A DNA stretch of 22,423 nucleotides from contig CAJVZA010000026.1 of NCBI GenBank assembly GCA_913009315.1, forward strand, positions 1 to 22,423, in the 5' to 3' direction. The DNA comes from an uncultured Hippea sp. (GTDB lineage Bacteria > Campylobacterota_A > Desulfurellia > JAADFJ01). Made by a program: the position numbers and the translations under genes. Under the pieces are notes generated by a model that was given only the letters and a program-made list of their open reading frames with translations, did no database searches and was not told the DNA's origin. Of this stretch, positions 1,402 through 10,060 are shown in pieces (position 1 is the first letter of the stretch; each line of letters opens with the position of its first letter).

Positions 1402-2046
1402 TTAAGCTCTGTTCCAGAACAGCAAGCCGTAGATAACTGTCAATGCTAATGTGTAGGCGACAAGAATATAAAACCATTTTCCAGCAAACTTGGGAGTTTT
1501 TACAGGAGCTAAATTTAACACCAGTAATATCATCAAAAGAACGTAAATAATTATTGAAAATACTTTATAACTAATAAAGCCTTCAAATAAAAACACAAAT
1601 GAGAGAATAACAATATTGTTATCTAATGCCAATCCTCTGTAGGTTTTATCGTCAATCAGACCGAAAACATTGAAGTAACTTAATCGGATAGCACTAACAG
1701 CAACAATCAAAAATGCTCCCGGTAGGAACCATGGACTGAACTTGCCATAGCTTAAGAGAAAAATAGCTGGGAATACTCCAAAACTTACAATATCAATCAG
1801 CGAATCAAGCTGCTCCCCAACGGCTCGATGGTGAGCTGTCCGCCCTTTAATTTGTCGGGCAATGATTCCGTCAGCCCAGTCAAATAAAACAGCCCACAGA
1901 ACTCCAATTATTGCGAGAGGAAAAATGCCCAAAATCGCATAGTAAATACCAAGGACTGCACACAACAGACCTGCAAGGGAGCAGAGATTAGGAATATCCC
2001 TGGCAAAATAGAGCATTGTGGGAGTATGCGGTTTAGAATTTGTCAT
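1402..2046 (-). CDS. PssA-like CDP-alcohol phosphatidyltransferase
   Basis: Integral membrane enzyme of 214 aa, the length typical of the family, with about six hydrophobic segments. The catalytic CDP-alcohol phosphatidyltransferase signature is present: D56-W-A-D59-G60-I-I-A63-R64, then G77, D81 and D85. The following VSFGVFPA is characteristic of the phosphatidylserine synthase (PssA) branch. The R64-to-G77 spacer is 12 residues rather than the usual 8. Family enzymes transfer a phospho-alcohol between a CDP-activated donor and an alcohol acceptor at the membrane. The start overlaps the upstream gene's stop as TAATG, so it is translationally coupled to the PLP enzyme. PssA would use CDP-diacylglycerol and serine. 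Given its neighbours it may instead use a CDP-aminoalcohol and diacylglycerol (inference). I therefore give no gene symbol. Confidence 0.85.
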   Translation of the reverse strand: MTNSKPHTPTMLYFARDIPNLCSLAGLLCAVLGIYYAILGIFPLAIIGVLWAVLFDWADGIIARQIKGRTAHHRAVGEQLDSLIDIVSFGVFPAIFLLSYGKFSPWFLPGAFLIVAVSAIRLSYFNVFGLIDDKTYRGLALDNNIVILSFVFLFEGFISYKVFSIIIYVLLMILLVLNLAPVKTPKFAGKWFYILVAYTLALTVIYGLLFWNRA

Positions 2047-3167
2047 TATTTGTGTGCCTGGCAGTTTTTTAAGTCCATTACCTTGATTAATGCTTCAACT
2101 AATTTACAATTCTCTGTTTCTGTACGGCTGGCAATACGAAGATAACGATCTGAATCAGGTTGTGTTTTGCCGGCACAGTCCTTTATATACATATTATGTT
2201 CAATAAACAATTTTTTGGTGATTTCCGGAGCACTTTGCGCATAATCAGGCAGGCGGCAAAAGATAAAGTTGGCATCAGGTTTAAAAACAGTCATGCCGTT
2301 AATGTTGCAAAGTTTTTTATACAGGCTGTTTCGGTCAGTTCGCACCTGTTTGCAGCTTGCAATAAATTCTTGTTTGTAATCCGGCAAAAGTCGTAAAAAC
2401 TCTTCTGCAAACCCGTTAATATTCCAGATATGCACTCCATTTCGCACGGCTTCTGCAAATTTAGAATTTGCCGTCAGCATATAACCGATCCTGAGTCCAC
2501 AGATACCGTAAGCTTTGCTCATACTTTTGAAAATCGTTATATTTTGGTATTTTTCGATTTCTTGTTCCATGCTATGCAGATCAGGATTCTCTGCAAAATC
2601 TAAAAAAGATTCATCAATAATCAGCATACAGTTATTGGTTTCAAGTTTTTTGGCAAGACGAATGAGATCGGACTTGGGAATCAATAAAGATGTTGGGTTG
2701 TTTGGCGTTACCACAACAGCCACATCGGCTTTGACTCTAATCACTTCCGCCGCAAATTTGTCAATATCCATCGTAAAGGATGGAAATTCAAGCGGGAACT
2801 CAACTACCTTGTCTGCAGGGGCAGCATTGACATATTCGTTAAAAGAAGGCACGGAAACGATTAACTTGTTTGATATATGCCCTGATACTATCTTTATTAA
2901 TTCAGAAGCTCCATTCCCCACTACAATCCTTTCAGCAGGTTGGTTGATTATTTTGCCAATAAGCCCGGCTAAGGCATTTTGCGCCACCGGATAATTCAGA
3001 ACAAGATCGTGAATCCGATCTTTAAAATTTGAAAAAACAGCCTCCGGTGGAAAATATAGATTATAAAGGTAGGCATGATCTACAAAATGATATCGATAAT
3101 AACCACCGTGTTGACCACAGATAAATTCGTACTTTTCCGCTTGAGTCTTATAATTATTTCGTATCAT
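2046..3167 (-). CDS. CobD/HisC-like PLP enzyme (aminotransferase or phosphoserine decarboxylase)
   Basis: Fold-type I PLP enzyme, 373 aa. Visible landmarks are GQHGG at 18-22 (the N-terminal HGG typical of the CobD branch), PNNP at 155-158, D185 in IIDESF contacting the pyridine nitrogen, K218 in SMSKAYG as the Schiff-base lysine, R226 in GLRIGY for the cofactor phosphate, and R344 in YLRIA for the substrate carboxylate. Histidinol-phosphate aminotransferase is the generic reading. The N-terminal HGG and the C-terminal stretch around IKDCAG resemble threonine-phosphate decarboxylase CobD and its serine-phosphate-decarboxylating relatives. No cobalamin genes are nearby. It sits between a cytidylyltransferase-like gene and a phosphatidyltransferase, which suggests it makes a phospho-aminoalcohol such as phosphoethanolamine (inference). 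Confidence 0.8.
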   Translation of the reverse strand: MIRNNYKTQAEKYEFICGQHGGYYRYHFVDHAYLYNLYFPPEAVFSNFKDRIHDLVLNYPVAQNALAGLIGKIINQPAERIVVGNGASELIKIVSGHISNKLIVSVPSFNEYVNAAPADKVVEFPLEFPSFTMDIDKFAAEVIRVKADVAVVVTPNNPTSLLIPKSDLIRLAKKLETNNCMLIIDESFLDFAENPDLHSMEQEIEKYQNITIFKSMSKAYGICGLRIGYMLTANSKFAEAVRNGVHIWNINGFAEEFLRLLPDYKQEFIASCKQVRTDRNSLYKKLCNINGMTVFKPDANFIFCRLPDYAQSAPEITKKLFIEHNMYIKDCAGKTQPDSDRYLRIASRTETENCKLVEALIKVMDLKNCQAHK

Positions 3168-3219
3168 ATGAAATTCTTGTTATTTTTTTAGTGTTGTGCG
3201 GTATTGCACCATTGTTCAA

Positions 3220-4014
3220 TTACGTGACCCAAAAAACAGGAACAGTTCTATCAGCTATACGATTGTATAATGGAAATAATTTTTCAGCCTTTGCCAGATC
3301 TTCAATAGTGTCTATTTCATACCATGGCTTGCTGTCAAAAGAGACGATATCAAAAGAGAGGTTGCCATCAGCAATCATTTCCGTAAATATGATTTCGTAA
3401 TAGTCGTTTGTTTTGCCATCCGAAATATGCTGATCTAATTTTTTGACAATATTGCGCCAGGAACTAAGCGAAATACAATAAATATTAACTGTTTTATATG
3501 AATTCACAGCAAGGCGGGCTTTGTTGTCCTTAAAAAATGCTTTAACTTGTTGAGATTGATTGATTGTAACATATGCTCCGTCCATCCACGTTTGCATCTT
3601 TGCAACAGCTATTTTATCAGGATACAGCATGGATTTCAGAAGTGAACTATCAAATACAAGATCACTTTCGAGCAGCAGGAATGGCTCATTGATAATTTCA
3701 CGAGCCATCCAGAGAGAATAGATATTATTGGTCGTCTTGTATAGCGGACTAAAAATGTAATCGATTGCAATGTCACCTATCCGAGTTCCCAGGAAATCCT
3801 TAATGCAATTTTCTAAATACCCTGTAACCACGACGAGACGTTTGAAACCATTTAGACTCAGATTTGAGATCAAACGTTCAAGTATCGACACGCCATTAAC
3901 TAACGTTAGGCATTTTGGGGCATTCTGCGATAATGGATAAAGGCGGCTGCCTGTTCCGGCTGCAAGAAGCAATGCGGTGGTCACAGGTTTTTTATGGATG
4001 TAGCTATATCTCAT
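3220..4014 (-). CDS. LicC-like nucleotidyltransferase
   Basis: Cytoplasmic nucleotidyltransferase of 264 aa. The N-terminal nucleotide-binding signature spans residues 17-36, starting LAAGTGSRLYPLS and ending APKCL, with K34 the conserved PK lysine. TTNNIYS at 94-100, the metal-binding ESDLVFD at 116-122, and WYEID near 231-235 followed by an ED-AE helix are features shared with phosphocholine cytidylyltransferase LicC and 2-aminoethylphosphonate cytidylyltransferase PntC rather than with sugar-nucleotide enzymes such as RmlA. The expected product is a CDP-activated amino-alcohol. It is the first gene of a three-gene minus-strand operon; the PLP enzyme follows after 52 nt. The start has only a weak AGAG ribosome-binding site. 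The exact substrate cannot be read from sequence. Confidence 0.8.
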   Translation of the reverse strand: MRYSYIHKKPVTTALLLAAGTGSRLYPLSQNAPKCLTLVNGVSILERLISNLSLNGFKRLVVVTGYLENCIKDFLGTRIGDIAIDYIFSPLYKTTNNIYSLWMAREIINEPFLLLESDLVFDSSLLKSMLYPDKIAVAKMQTWMDGAYVTINQSQQVKAFFKDNKARLAVNSYKTVNIYCISLSSWRNIVKKLDQHISDGKTNDYYEIIFTEMIADGNLSFDIVSFDSKPWYEIDTIEDLAKAEKLFPLYNRIADRTVPVFWVT

Positions 4015-4339: not shown

Positions 4340-4465
4340 AGGCTGTTGAAAAATGTCATTGCTGAAAATAGAGTGACGTAACAATCTCAAAAGACGTTGA
4401 CAATAAAGAAATTGCTTCGTACCTTTTGGTGCTCGCAATGACAAATAGGAAGTTTTCAACAGGCT
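4340..4465. repeat. MITE-like inverted-repeat element
   Basis: The ends are imperfect inverted repeats. The left end begins AGGCTGTTGAAAAA and continues TGTCATTGC (to 4362). The right end carries GCAATGACA (4435-4443) and finishes TTTTCAACAGGCT (4453-4465). Inside are ACAATCTC near the left and GAAATTGCTTCGTACC with GGTGCTCGCAATGAC near the right. That GTCATTGC / CAATCTC / ATTGCTTCG vocabulary is a widespread non-autonomous bacterial repeat. No transposase is encoded. The sequence continues an apparent minus-strand open frame, which I consider spurious. Confidence 0.65.
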
Positions 4466-4501
4466 CAAAATATTTGATAACAGTTGATGCAAATTAATAA
4501 A

Positions 4502-4543: not shown

Positions 4544-4726
4544 AGGGGTCGCGTCTCGACATCTGTCTTCTTCAATCTTTTTCTCAAATCTCTCAACAGC
4601 TTTGGATGCGTAAAAGATGCGAACATACAGGCAGATTTTCAAAAAGGGGAGTTTTGAAAAGCGCGTCATAATATCTGGATAATATCGGAAGAATAACTTA
4701 ATGTCCAATGTCGAGACGCGACCCCT
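4544..4726. repeat. 183-bp element with perfect 19-bp inverted ends
   Basis: The left arm AGGGGTCGCGTCTCGACAT (4544-4562) is an exact reverse complement of 4708-4726. Each arm contains its own small palindrome (GTCG...CGAC), and a GTAG tetranucleotide overlaps the left edge at 4542-4545, as in REP elements. The 145 nt between the arms hold no recognisable gene. The structure suggests a MITE or REP-pair mobilised in trans. The right edge is 10 nt from the efp promoter. Confidence 0.65.
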
Positions 4727-6382: not shown

Positions 6383-7138
6383 ATGCTGGGTATTTTTGAT
6401 TCAGGTGTAGGAGGTCTTACCGTATTAAAAGCTCTGATAAGGATAAACCCCGATATTGATTTTATCTATTTAGGAGATACTGCAAGAGTTCCTTATGGCA
6501 ACAAATCAAAAAAAACTATTTTCCGATATGCCCATGACGACATAGATTTTCTGATCAGAAACGGCGCAACTCAGATATTGTCCGCATGCAATACGGTCAG
6601 CTCGCTTCCGCTTGAGAATTTGAAGAGTTCGTATAAAATTCCTATTTATGGAGTTATTGAACCTGCGGTAACTGCCGCTGTAAGGATAACCAAAGGAAAG
6701 GTTGCCGTCATAGGAACAAAATCTACCATAGATAGTCATATATATAAAAATAAGCTAAACCGGCATGGAATCGAGGTTTTTGAACAGGCAACTCCGCTCC
6801 TGGTTCCCTTCATAGAAGAGGGATGGGTTAATAAAGCGATAACCGATGATTTAGTAAATATCTACATGAAACCGATAGTTGAAAGCAATGCAGACACATT
6901 GATCCTCGGGTGTACCCATTATCCTATGCTTTATGAAAATATAAAATCTGCAACCGGAGGAAAACTAAGAATAATCAGTTCTGCTGACGCAACAGCCGAG
7001 TTTTTGTCAAAAAAGATTGCCTTAAACGGCAGCGGCAATACAAAGTTTTTTGCTACTGATTCGGTCGAATCATTCAAAAAAATAGGTGCGGCTTTTCTGG
7101 CAAACAGATTCAACGGAGTAAAAGAGGTATCGCTATGA
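6383..7138 (+). CDS. murI: Glutamate racemase
   Basis: Cofactor-independent racemase that makes D-glutamate for peptidoglycan, cytoplasmic, 251 aa (family about 250-285). The two catalytic cysteines are C69 in SACNTVS and C177 in LGCTHYP. D6 lies in the N-terminal FDSGVGGL signature, and LGDTARVPYG follows at about 30-39. SACNTVS has Val-Ser where many relatives have Ala-Thr. The start at MLGIFDSG fits the family, although no clear Shine-Dalgarno is visible; the upstream gap carries an unusual C-rich stretch (CCCTGCCCCGCCCGCTC). Its stop overlaps the hisH start as ATGA. Confidence 0.95.
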   Translation: MLGIFDSGVGGLTVLKALIRINPDIDFIYLGDTARVPYGNKSKKTIFRYAHDDIDFLIRNGATQILSACNTVSSLPLENLKSSYKIPIYGVIEPAVTAAVRITKGKVAVIGTKSTIDSHIYKNKLNRHGIEVFEQATPLLVPFIEEGWVNKAITDDLVNIYMKPIVESNADTLILGCTHYPMLYENIKSATGGKLRIISSADATAEFLSKKIALNGSGNTKFFATDSVESFKKIGAAFLANRFNGVKEVSL

Positions 7139-7758
7139 TTGTAATTGTTGACTATGGAAGAGGAAATCTGAGAAGTGTGCAGAAATCTTTAGAGAAAATG
7201 AGGATAGCTTGCAGAATATCGGATAAACCGGACGTGATTGATAGCGCTGAAGGCATAATTTTCCCGGGTGTCGGTGCTTTTAAAGACGCAATGGAAACTC
7301 TTGATGATAGAGGATTAAGGAAACCGCTAAAGAAATATATTGCGAGCGGAAAACCGTTTTTAGGAATCTGTCTCGGACTGCAGCTGCTTTTTGAATATGG
7401 GACTGAATATGGCAAAACGAAGGGACTTGAAATATTTAAAGGTAAAGTAGTACGGTTTCAATCCGAAAAGCTCCGAATCCCGCATATGGGATGGAACAGG
7501 GTGCATTTTGATGATTCACCGCTTTTTGCCGGTATTACGCAGGATTCATATTTCTATTTTGTGCATTCTTATTATGCGGAATGTGAAAAAGATGAGGACA
7601 TAACGGCTGTCACCGAATATGGCTGCCGTTTTGTTTCTGCTGTAAAAAAAGAGAATGTTTATGCCGTTCAATTTCATCCTGAAAAAAGCGGTGAAAACGG
7701 TCTGAAAATTATAAAAAATTTTGGAGAAATTGTAGATGAATATTATACCGGCAATTGA
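7135..7758 (+). CDS. hisH: Imidazole glycerol phosphate synthase, glutaminase subunit
   Basis: Class I glutamine amidotransferase of 207 aa that supplies ammonia to HisF in histidine synthesis. The catalytic triad is visible: nucleophile C79 in GICLGLQLLFE, then H181 and E183 in VQFHPEKSG. HMGWNRV near 117-123 is a HisH hallmark. It overlaps murI by 4 nt and hisA by 23 nt, so it is tightly coupled. The partner cyclase hisF is not downstream of hisA, where it is often found, and is not elsewhere in this window. Confidence 0.96.
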   Translation: MIVIVDYGRGNLRSVQKSLEKMRIACRISDKPDVIDSAEGIIFPGVGAFKDAMETLDDRGLRKPLKKYIASGKPFLGICLGLQLLFEYGTEYGKTKGLEIFKGKVVRFQSEKLRIPHMGWNRVHFDDSPLFAGITQDSYFYFVHSYYAECEKDEDITAVTEYGCRFVSAVKKENVYAVQFHPEKSGENGLKIIKNFGEIVDEYYTGN

Positions 7759-8452
7759 CATTTCAGATGGAAAAGTAATAAGACTTAAGAAAGGCAGAAT
7801 CGAAGATAAAACAATTTACAGCAGCAGCCCTTATAAAATTTTGGAGGATTTTATAAAAAGCGGCGCAGAATGGGTTCATATAGTTGATATAGACAGAGCT
7901 ACCCGCAGAGCCGACAACAAAGATTTGATAAAAGAACTGCTTGGCAGCAAGGGAATAAAAAAGGAGGTCGGCGGCGGTTTAAGAACAAAAGATGAAATAA
8001 TTCAGATGTTTGAATATGGCGCAGACAGAGTAGTGATTGGAACTGCTGCATGTGAAAACAGAGATTTAGTCAAATCGATTGCCCTGCAATATCCGGGTCA
8101 AACCATAGTTGCATTAGATTTTTCGAATAACAGTGTTATGATAGATGGCTGGTTGAAGGATAGCGGAAGCACACCTATCGAATTTGCAAAACAGTTTATG
8201 CCGGAAATTAATCTATTTTTACTTACGGATATTTCAAAGGACGGCATGCTGAGCGGAATTGATGAAAAATTTTATAGTCGGTTTGCCGTTGAAACGGGCG
8301 CCAAGACTATAATTTCAGGAGGAGTACAATCAATCAAGGATATAAAAAAAGCTGTGAAGTTAGGCGAATCAGTTGAGGGCATTATTATCGGTAAAGCACT
8401 TTATGAGAAAAGATTCAGCTTGAAAGAAGCGTTAGAGGTTTCTAATGGTTAG
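7736..8452 (+). CDS. hisA: ProFAR isomerase
   Basis: TIM-barrel isomerase of 238 aa catalysing the Amadori rearrangement of ProFAR to PRFAR in histidine synthesis. The acid/base pair is D8 (IPAIDISDGKVIRL) and D128 (VALDFSNN). Phosphate-binding loops VGGGLR (78-83) and SGGVQ are present, with TDISKDGM at 164-171. The IPAIDI and KGR sequences separate it from HisF, which has IPCLDV. The start lies inside the end of hisH. The next gene is a methyltransferase overlapping by 8 nt, where hisF would often sit. Confidence 0.96.
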   Translation: MNIIPAIDISDGKVIRLKKGRIEDKTIYSSSPYKILEDFIKSGAEWVHIVDIDRATRRADNKDLIKELLGSKGIKKEVGGGLRTKDEIIQMFEYGADRVVIGTAACENRDLVKSIALQYPGQTIVALDFSNNSVMIDGWLKDSGSTPIEFAKQFMPEINLFLLTDISKDGMLSGIDEKFYSRFAVETGAKTIISGGVQSIKDIKKAVKLGESVEGIIIGKALYEKRFSLKEALEVSNG

Positions 8453-9080
8453 ATCTAAGATCAAAATAACAGGTGTTAAGGCGCGATTTTACGATCTGCT
8501 GGTCAATCTCGCCACCGGTTTCAAATACGGCAAACTTGTAAAAGATACTGCTGCAAAAATGAATATCACAGAGGGTGTCAGTTTGATAGATTTAGGAGGC
8601 GGAACAGGTAAAAATGCAAAGCTGTTTGCCCGTTCAGCCGGAAACTCCGGCAGGATTGTTTTGGTTGATATCGGCAAAACAATGCTTAAAAAAGCAGGAA
8701 GAAGGCTAAAAAAATATAAAAATTCTGAGGTTGTCCAGGCAGATATATTAAAACCGTTGAAGCTTAACGGATTTGATATGGTATTTATAGGTTTTATAAT
8801 GCACGGATTTGAGATTCAGGAACGATCGGCTCTAATGAAAAATGTCTCAAAACTGCTGAAAAGGGGCGGTCATCTTTTTATATTGGATTACAATCAGTTT
8901 GATATGAAAAAACTTAACCCGATAGCCGGATATCTCTTTAATCATTTTGAGTGCGAACTGGCAACGGAATTTATCAAATGGGATATGGAACGTTTTCTTC
9001 GGAGCTATAAACTTGGAAAATTTGAAAAATGGTATTGGCATGACAAGAAAATAAGACTGTTGAGGGCCGAAAAATTATGA
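8445..9080 (+). CDS. Class I SAM-dependent methyltransferase
   Basis: 211 aa with a Rossmann-fold methyltransferase core: motif I DLGGGTG (49-55), the acidic residue after strand 2 in VLVDIGKTM (72-80), a conserved VVQADI near 94-99, and GGHLFILDY near 136-144. It resembles the UbiE/Methyltransf_11 type. With futalosine-pathway genes later in the window, a MenG-like role in menaquinone methylation is conceivable, but the sequence does not show substrate specificity. It overlaps hisA by 8 nt and the next gene by 4 nt, so it is probably co-expressed with the histidine genes. Confidence 0.8.
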   Translation: MVRSKIKITGVKARFYDLLVNLATGFKYGKLVKDTAAKMNITEGVSLIDLGGGTGKNAKLFARSAGNSGRIVLVDIGKTMLKKAGRRLKKYKNSEVVQADILKPLKLNGFDMVFIGFIMHGFEIQERSALMKNVSKLLKRGGHLFILDYNQFDMKKLNPIAGYLFNHFECELATEFIKWDMERFLRSYKLGKFEKWYWHDKKIRLLRAEKL

Positions 9081-10060
9081 ATAATACGGATAAGAAAACT
9101 ATCTTTGTCAGCGATCTCAAAGAAACTACTGAAGAGTTTAGCTCTGTCTTCAAAGTAGGCGTAATTGAGCCGCTGAAAACAAGAGCAGGAAAGAAGTTCT
9201 ACAACATATTGTTGAAAGATAAAACCGGCGTAATAAAAGCGAAACTGTGGAACGACAAAATTGAGCTTGCAAAAGGAATAAAGATCAATGATATTGTCAA
9301 CATAGAAGGCAAAACAAACAGATACGCAGGCACTCTTCAAATAATTATAAAAAATATGAGCCGATCTGATTACTCGAATGAGGATGATTTTAAGATACTT
9401 TCCGATAAAAAAATTCTTCAGTTTTCAGCTGAACTTGACAGCCTTATTTTAGATGTTAAAAACAGTACACTAAAAAAAATACTTAAGAAATTTTTTGATA
9501 ATAAAGAGATCCGAAGTAGATTCATGAGCCATCCTGCGGCGAAATCTATTCATCATTGCTATATGGGAGGTCTGCTCGAACATTCCGTCTCTATGGCAAA
9601 AATTGCAAAAAACTTATCGGCATATTATGGTTTAGACAGCGATCTCATGATTGCGGGAGCACTTCTTCATGATATAGGAAAGCTGCAGGAACTGACGGAA
9701 AATGGTGAATACACAAGAGAAGGACAGCTCCTCGGGCATCTTGCCATAGGTGTTGCTGAAATAGAAAAGGCCTCAAGAGGCTTGGGTGAAGAGACTCCGG
9801 TTATACTCCATCTGAAGCATATAATAGCATCACATCATGGAGAACTTGAATGGGGCTCGATAAAAAAGCCGTTAACGGCTGAGGCAGAACTGCTGTTTAA
9901 TATTGATTATATGGATTCCCGGCAAAGCATCTATAAGTTAAAAAATTTTGACTTATCGAATGCGCGTTTTGACAATGAACTGAAAACGACCGATAAACCG
10001 ACTTCTTTAAAAAGCAATAAGGCCGAAAGCGGCAGCCCTACCCTATTTGGAGATCGTTAA
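9077..10060 (+). CDS. YhaM-like OB-fold/HD-domain 3'-5' exoribonuclease
   Basis: Two-domain protein of 327 aa. An N-terminal OB nucleic-acid-binding domain covers about 20-95 (FKVGVIEPLKT, then TGVIKAKLWND). A C-terminal HD hydrolase domain covers about 155-290, with metal ligands H169 (GGLLEHS), H198-D199 (LLHDIGK) and H253-H254 (IASHHGE). This is the architecture of Bacillus YhaM, an RNA 3'-5' exonuclease also active on single-stranded DNA. The N-terminal ATG overlaps the methyltransferase stop. The last 35 residues are polar and probably disordered. It is followed by tmk after 3 nt. Confidence 0.88.
   Translation: MNNTDKKTIFVSDLKETTEEFSSVFKVGVIEPLKTRAGKKFYNILLKDKTGVIKAKLWNDKIELAKGIKINDIVNIEGKTNRYAGTLQIIIKNMSRSDYSNEDDFKILSDKKILQFSAELDSLILDVKNSTLKKILKKFFDNKEIRSRFMSHPAAKSIHHCYMGGLLEHSVSMAKIAKNLSAYYGLDSDLMIAGALLHDIGKLQELTENGEYTREGQLLGHLAIGVAEIEKASRGLGEETPVILHLKHIIASHHGELEWGSIKKPLTAEAELLFNIDYMDSRQSIYKLKNFDLSNARFDNELKTTDKPTSLKSNKAESGSPTLFGDR

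Follow-up and report, generated by a model that had tools for sequence, protein, structure and literature searches.

The DNA analyzed here is contig CAJVZA010000026.1 of an uncultured Hippea sp. (GenBank assembly GCA_913009315.1), a stretch of 22,423 nucleotides that we refer to as the window. It is one contig (C26) of a genome bin of 1.74 Mb that is 87.6% complete (G000). The window carries three adjacent minus-strand genes, CYT, PLP, and CDPOH (collectively, the trio), which encode a cytidylyltransferase, a pyridoxal-phosphate enzyme, and a CDP-alcohol phosphatidyltransferase, respectively (Table 1). A prior reading of this DNA made from its letters only (the sequence-only reading) described these genes as a candidate operon for a phospholipid headgroup. 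The three complete open reading frames (ORFs) and the families assigned to them were confirmed, as each product exceeds the Pfam cut-off for its family (NTP_transferase, PF00483, for CYT; Aminotran_1_2, PF00155, for PLP; and CDP-OH_P_transf, PF01066, for CDPOH). The reported coupling of the last two genes was also found: the PLP stop and the CDPOH start overlap in the sequence TAATG at 2048-2044, so that CDPOH is translationally coupled to PLP. The trio has a GC content of 0.384 and a GC content at third codon positions (GC3) of 0.36-0.37, the same as the remainder of the window, and a recent foreign base composition was rejected on the basis of these native-like values.

Table 1. Position and assignment of the trio genes and of the gene remnant that follows them in the window
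Feature	Position	Strand	Description
CYT	3220-4014	minus	264 aa, complete ORF; LicC/PntC-type cytidylyltransferase, operon gene 1
PLP	2046-3167	minus	373 aa, complete ORF; CobD-like pyridoxal-phosphate enzyme, predicted phospho-amino-acid decarboxylase
CDPOH	1402-2046	minus	214 aa, complete ORF; CDP-alcohol phosphatidyltransferase, PssA-related subfamily
ATP-grasp ligase gene remnant, decayed	1178-1356	minus	found by blastx in 2 pieces; such a gene follows the trio in related loci

When 84,980 species genomes were scanned, 76 loci with a relative of PLP (59-94% identical) were identified. The order CYT-PLP-CDPOH is present in 66 of these loci, spread over ∼15 phyla, so the trio is indeed conserved together across genomes. 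Nine of the 10 incomplete loci end at a contig edge where the missing gene is expected, the exception being L080. The carriers include Desulfobacterota, Bacteroidota, Calditrichota, Chloroflexota, Spirochaetota, Deferribacterota, and two Methanosarcinaceae (archaea). Some of these placements may reflect mis-binned contigs, and two loci (L085 and L087) lie on complete chromosomes. Desulfosediminicola flagellatus (L087) and Saccharicrinis aurantiacus (L048) are carriers in culture. Sequence distances are correlated among the three genes (0.78-0.82; 0/999 permutations), and their dN/dS values of 0.10-0.36 indicate purifying selection. In a quick tree of PLP sequences with SH-aLRT support, the 70 trio sequences cluster together (98%), and the sister of this cluster consists of enzymes from phosphoenolpyruvate (PEP) mutase clusters on rhizobial plasmids; the tree conflicts with taxonomy in places, and the Bacteroidota stay together. 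The distribution is sporadic: of 25 genomes in the window's phylum, 1 has the trio, as do 3 of 297 sampled in the phylum to which a Desulfopila carrier belongs, with this carrier counted among the 3. DNA similarity to the window ends near the operon boundaries, and the flanks are mostly unrelated. Based on this co-inheritance, purifying selection, and sporadic distribution, we conclude that the trio is a co-inherited, horizontally mobile operon of bacteria and archaea. No relative was found in viral contigs, phage records gave nothing beyond distant CobD/HisC-like matches, and no description of the operon was found in the literature searched.

The genome that contains the window encodes separate counterparts of the enzymes that the trio resembles. 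A HisC is encoded on contig C7 (362.4 bits, above the NCBIfam cut-off), a CobD-type gene lies beside cobU and cbiB on C87, and a PssA is encoded on C74 (139.5 bits, above cut-off). The trio proteins score below the corresponding equivalog cut-offs: the best NCBIfam score of PLP is to CobD (TIGR01140, 171.6 bits, cut-off 290.55), its score to hisC (TIGR01141) is 137.2 bits (cut-off 276.55), and CDPOH scores 69 bits against PssA (TIGR00473, cut-off 107). We therefore rejected the idea that PLP serves this genome as HisC or CobD, or CDPOH as the ordinary PssA. That reading also envisaged a route to phosphatidylethanolamine without the usual Psd decarboxylase, and this part did not hold, since Psd is encoded on C36 (350.8 bits, above the NCBIfam cut-off) and is present in 41 of the 49 trio genomes sampled (Pfam). 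The eight genomes in which it was not detected include Spirochaetales, Chloroflexota, and Coriobacteriales bins, and bin incompleteness may explain some of these cases. A role for the trio as a Psd replacement was thus rejected for the window genome and most carriers. From the separate HisC, CobD-type, PssA, and Psd genes and the scores of the trio proteins, we conclude that the trio is an extra enzyme set, in addition to Pss/Psd. The presence of Psd in most trio genomes makes an extra or different headgroup likely in those organisms.

Among solved structures, the closest sequence relative of PLP is SMUL_1544 (PDB 6oux, 135 bits, compared with 86 bits for Salmonella CobD). This protein of Sulfurospirillum multivorans is the one that Keller et al. 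are said to have described in 2016 as the O-phosphoserine decarboxylase of norcobamide synthesis, and a Sulfurospirillum homolog of it is annotated as a norcobamide serine-O-phosphate decarboxylase. PLP and SMUL_1544 share the DESF and WNIN signatures, but they are only ∼28-30% identical, and SMUL_1544 belongs to a cobamide operon and not beside CYT and CDPOH. PLP, in turn, is encoded between CYT and CDPOH and not, as would be expected of a CobD, with cobamide genes. The predicted structure of PLP (pLDDT 85.9) superposes best on CobD (1lc7, Z 37.5), followed by SMUL_1544 (Z 36.0), and the highest Z score of a named HisC structure is 35.9. In addition to WNIN, PLP carries an N-terminal HGG motif; CobD-type enzymes have this motif, as well as a basic residue where RxAxR has its second Arg, and the genome's HisC has neither. 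These active-site signatures fit a decarboxylase-type chemistry on a phospho-amino acid.

The nearest solved structures to CYT by sequence are LicC (1jyk) and PntC (6pd1), and its nucleotidyl motif GxG(S/T)Rx4-8PK is intact (GTGSRLYPLSQNAPK). CYT Glu116, which is invariant in the CYT alignment, aligns with Glu104 of Tde-PntC, a residue positioned for contact with the primary amine of aminoethylphosphonate (AEP). The choline-specific LicC has Asp105 at this position, so that in its amine pocket CYT resembles the AEP-specific PntC and not LicC. This signature fits a small amine substrate for CYT. CYT and PLP are fused in one trio locus (L088) and also in Fusobacterium, Rahnella, and Priestia, and these fusions suggest that the two enzymes act in sequence.

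In CDPOH, the catalytic motif DxxDGxxAR...GxxxDxxxD is intact, and a looser pattern is present in all 71 sequences examined. Its nearest solved structure by sequence is Methanocaldococcus PssA, and its predicted structure fits best to MjPSS (Z 20.4; choline phosphotransferase, Z 10.5). Weak fold matches to rhodopsins and others (Z ∼5) were disregarded. The conserved Arg101 and Arg104 of PSS belong to an ionic network in the serine site (PMC8633023). CDPOH shares the fold and the catalytic Asp motif of this enzyme and keeps Arg101, but Arg104 is replaced by Tyr (RLSYF vs RLARF), and four residues are inserted ahead of the GxxxD part relative to MjPSS. The Tyr replacement (RLSYF, RLTYF, or RFSYF) is present in 66 of 66 CDPOH sequences in which the motif was found (it was not found in 5), and the change at Arg104 is common to CDPOH and the phosphatidyltransferases from those PEP-mutase clusters in which a CYT is also encoded.

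On the strength of these observations, we lean toward the reading that the trio is a self-contained mobile pathway to a phospholipid or lipid-linked amino-alcohol headgroup, which would take a phospho-amino acid through decarboxylation and cytidylylation to attachment on a lipid alcohol. In this pathway, PLP would decarboxylate a phosphorylated β-hydroxy amino acid, most likely O-phosphoserine to give phosphoethanolamine (alternatively, O-phosphothreonine to give aminopropanol phosphate). CYT, with its intact motif and amine-contact Glu, would use CTP to form the CDP-amino-alcohol, and CDPOH would transfer the phospho-amino-alcohol to a lipid alcohol, whether diacylglycerol or a different one. 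An ATP-grasp ligase or methyltransferase would then probably act on the amine in many relatives. We consider O-phosphoserine the likeliest substrate of PLP, and O-phosphothreonine the alternative, because no PEP mutase was found in the trio genomes or loci, which points to the phosphate analog. More tentatively, we propose a kinase-free, Psd-independent portable operon that leads from phosphoserine through phosphoethanolamine and CDP-ethanolamine to lipid, with an interchangeable aminoacylating or methylating fourth gene, in both bacteria and archaea; if so, the trio would be the only source of such an aminophospholipid in carriers without a detected Psd. The similar route from serine phosphate to phosphatidylethanolamine in the sequence-only reading is partly supported here by the separate HisC, CobD-type enzyme, and PssA, the conserved trio, and the active-site signatures; it loses the absence of Psd, and its headgroup is a predicted one. 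Should the proposed chemistry prove right, a single transferable cassette could bring a membrane headgroup to organisms of other phyla or even of the other domain, bacteria and archaea would have a Kennedy-type route that begins with an amino acid, and the lipids predicted should be findable by lipidomics of marine anaerobes. The trio also provides a test of the benefit to an organism of a second aminophospholipid route.

The proposed route resembles one best known from animals and yeast. By homology, the trio contains the cytidylyltransferase and CDP-alcohol phosphotransferase of a Kennedy pathway. In that pathway the phospho-alcohol comes from a kinase, whereas in the trio it would come from decarboxylation; no choline or ethanolamine kinase lies within the trio, PLP being in its place, and no search was aimed at such a kinase outside the trio. 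The bifunctional protein FrbH joins a cytidylyltransferase domain to one that resembles CobD-like PLP decarboxylases, and CYT and PLP form an equivalent pair. In FR-900098 biosynthesis, FrbH is the cytidylyltransferase acting on 2-amino-4-phosphonobutyrate (PMC6697681). The PntC-like CYT links the trio to FrbH and to PntC/phosphonolipid clusters, but no PEP mutase was found in trio genomes, the genes are separate in the window, and a phosphatidyltransferase is added. The CDP-choline (Kennedy-type) pathway of Treponema denticola consists of LicA, LicC, and a CDP-alcohol-type choline phosphotransferase (PMC6805115). Like the trio, it pairs a LicC-like cytidylyltransferase with a CDP-alcohol phosphotransferase that would load diacylglycerol; unlike it, the trio has no kinase, its CobD-like PLP would make the phospho-alcohol de novo, and the amine pocket of CYT has the Glu of PntC instead of the Asp of LicC.

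Several observations weigh against the pathway proposed for the trio. CDPOH is closest in fold to PssA, whose substrates are CDP-diacylglycerol and a free alcohol; most carriers have Psd and would find plain phosphatidylethanolamine redundant; PLP fits HisC structures almost as well as it fits CobD (Z 35.9 vs 37.5); and the conserved features of PLP are without power to separate phosphoserine from phosphothreonine or to prove decarboxylation. The aminotransferase fold common to PLP and HisC, and the position of MjPSS as nearest relative of CDPOH, could be accommodated if PLP were an aminotransferase or side enzyme and CDPOH a PssA-like synthase acting on CDP-diacylglycerol, the genes being linked without a single pathway. 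The strict gene order and co-inheritance across phyla, together with the CYT-PLP fusions, make this hardly tenable. A somewhat unlikely variant keeps the same three steps and assigns to PLP O-phosphothreonine or another phospho-amino acid, to yield a headgroup of 1-amino-2-propanol or similar in a lipid other than phosphatidylethanolamine. The best structural match and the best NCBIfam score of PLP are both to CobD, the threonine-phosphate decarboxylase, and a new headgroup would explain why Psd-containing carriers retain the trio; against this, the sequence match of PLP is better to SMUL_1544 than to Salmonella CobD, and phosphoserine is the more widely available metabolite.

A phosphonate system, which the sequence-only reading had mentioned as an alternative headgroup, would use a PEP mutase encoded elsewhere to form phosphonopyruvate, PLP to yield AEP, the PntC-like enzyme to make CMP-AEP, and CDPOH to make a phosphonolipid. 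The PntC-type Glu of CYT is consistent with this chemistry, as is the location of the nearest PLP relatives outside the trio clade, which adjoin aepX (PEP mutase) on Mesorhizobium, Rhizobium, Bradyrhizobium, and Sinorhizobium plasmids. However, no PEP mutase above cut-off was found in any of 50 trio genomes (the 87.6% complete window genome, where Pfam also gave none, and 49 others), nor was pepM present in any of the 76 trio loci, so we regard a phosphonate product as very unlikely; AEP may be taken up from outside as a trio substrate. It is also unlikely, in our view, that the trio product is a secreted or cell-surface small molecule or a glycan decoration in place of a bulk membrane lipid. 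That notion draws on the fused CYT-PLP genes, which in Rahnella and Erwinia belong to natural-product-like clusters that also contain ATP-grasp and MFS genes and in Fusobacterium to a polysaccharide locus with LicD, on the ATP-grasp or LicD neighbors of some trio loci, and on the sporadic distribution. It fits less well with the CDPOH partner, which points to a lipid acceptor, with the mostly unrelated flanks, and with the 42 of 70 loci that have neither an ATP-grasp nor a methyltransferase gene downstream.

In the same 70 loci with downstream sequence, an ATP-grasp gene or remnant follows the trio in 19 (the window included) and a methyltransferase gene in 9 (2 of them on the opposite strand), and no locus has both. 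The recurrence of these fourth genes fits, indirectly, a product with a free amine that would later be decorated, in many relatives probably by the ATP-grasp ligase or methyltransferase. In the window, the two blastx pieces of the ATP-grasp remnant are 65-89% identical to residues 41-97 of the protein of locus L032 (77% DNA identity over 164 nt). A genome search showed one internal stop in the remnant and no other close match in the window genome. The downstream ATP-grasp protein shows a weak likeness, far under cut-offs, to the amino-acid ligases LdmS, BesA, and MfnD. The LicD family transfers groups of the phosphocholine type, and the occurrence of its genes at trio loci speaks for the proposed pathway. 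Such genes come directly after the trio in L075 and L077, whereas in L073 the LicD-family gene is inserted between PLP and CDPOH together with genes for a class III aminotransferase and a 2-hydroxyacid dehydrogenase (7096-10049). A calcineurin-like phosphoesterase gene is present in the retrieved flanks of 12 trio loci (e.g. L040, 4085-4930), on varying sides and strands.

Related clusters outside the trio combine these families differently. On rhizobial plasmids (L014, L015, L016, L018, and L019), aepX occurs with aminotransferase-like, PntC-like, CDP-alcohol phosphatidyltransferase and/or CobD-like genes. These plasmids suggest a route to phosphonolipids by decarboxylation of phosphonoalanine to AEP, and because the sister enzymes of PLP are encoded beside aepX, their substrate is probably phosphonoalanine, the phosphoserine analog. 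Plasmid pBM700 of Priestia megaterium (L012, 7998-11644) carries a fused cytidylyltransferase/CobD-like gene with ATP-grasp genes and a DXR gene, and no PEP mutase was found in 16.7 kb of this plasmid. We take this cluster to recall FR-900098-type clusters with a resistant DXR. The fused protein of Fusobacterium vincentii is encoded in a polysaccharide locus (L013, 5017-10863) with LicD nearby and a DUF1015 gene directly 3'; no PEP mutase is present in the surrounding 16.7 kb.

The sequence-only reading placed the trio under one good promoter, a claim that found no support: between 4015 and 4321 the minus strand has no sigma-70-like site with at least 9 of 12 matches, and shuffled sequences contain about as many sigma-70-like sites (20.1, sd 4.2) as the upstream region does (23). 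A promoter of a non-sigma-70-like type may lie upstream of the trio. A conserved upstream regulatory element was rejected, as an alignment of 21 upstream regions showed DNA conservation mainly at the ribosome-binding site and Rfam gave no match. Two inverted-repeat elements that look like small non-coding repeats are present farther upstream, one at 4340-4465 with 13-nt ends (AGGCTGTTGAAAA/TTTTCAACAGGCT) flanking 100 nt and one at 4544-4726 with a perfect 19-nt pair flanking 145 nt. DNA inside the first of these (4382-4466) is found again before efp in another genome (G020), where the contig is too short at efp to show presence or absence of the trio. The search for an empty site in the genus also covered G021, in which the genes upstream of efp are different ones and do not include the trio. 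Near the start of the window, an Illumina P7 adapter (CAAGCAGAAGACGGCATACGAGAT...GTGCTCTTCCGATCT) is embedded in the contig at 114-179, an ORF at 141-440 ends in the adapter translation (RSEEHTSELQSH), and bases 1-180 are probably a chimeric artifact.

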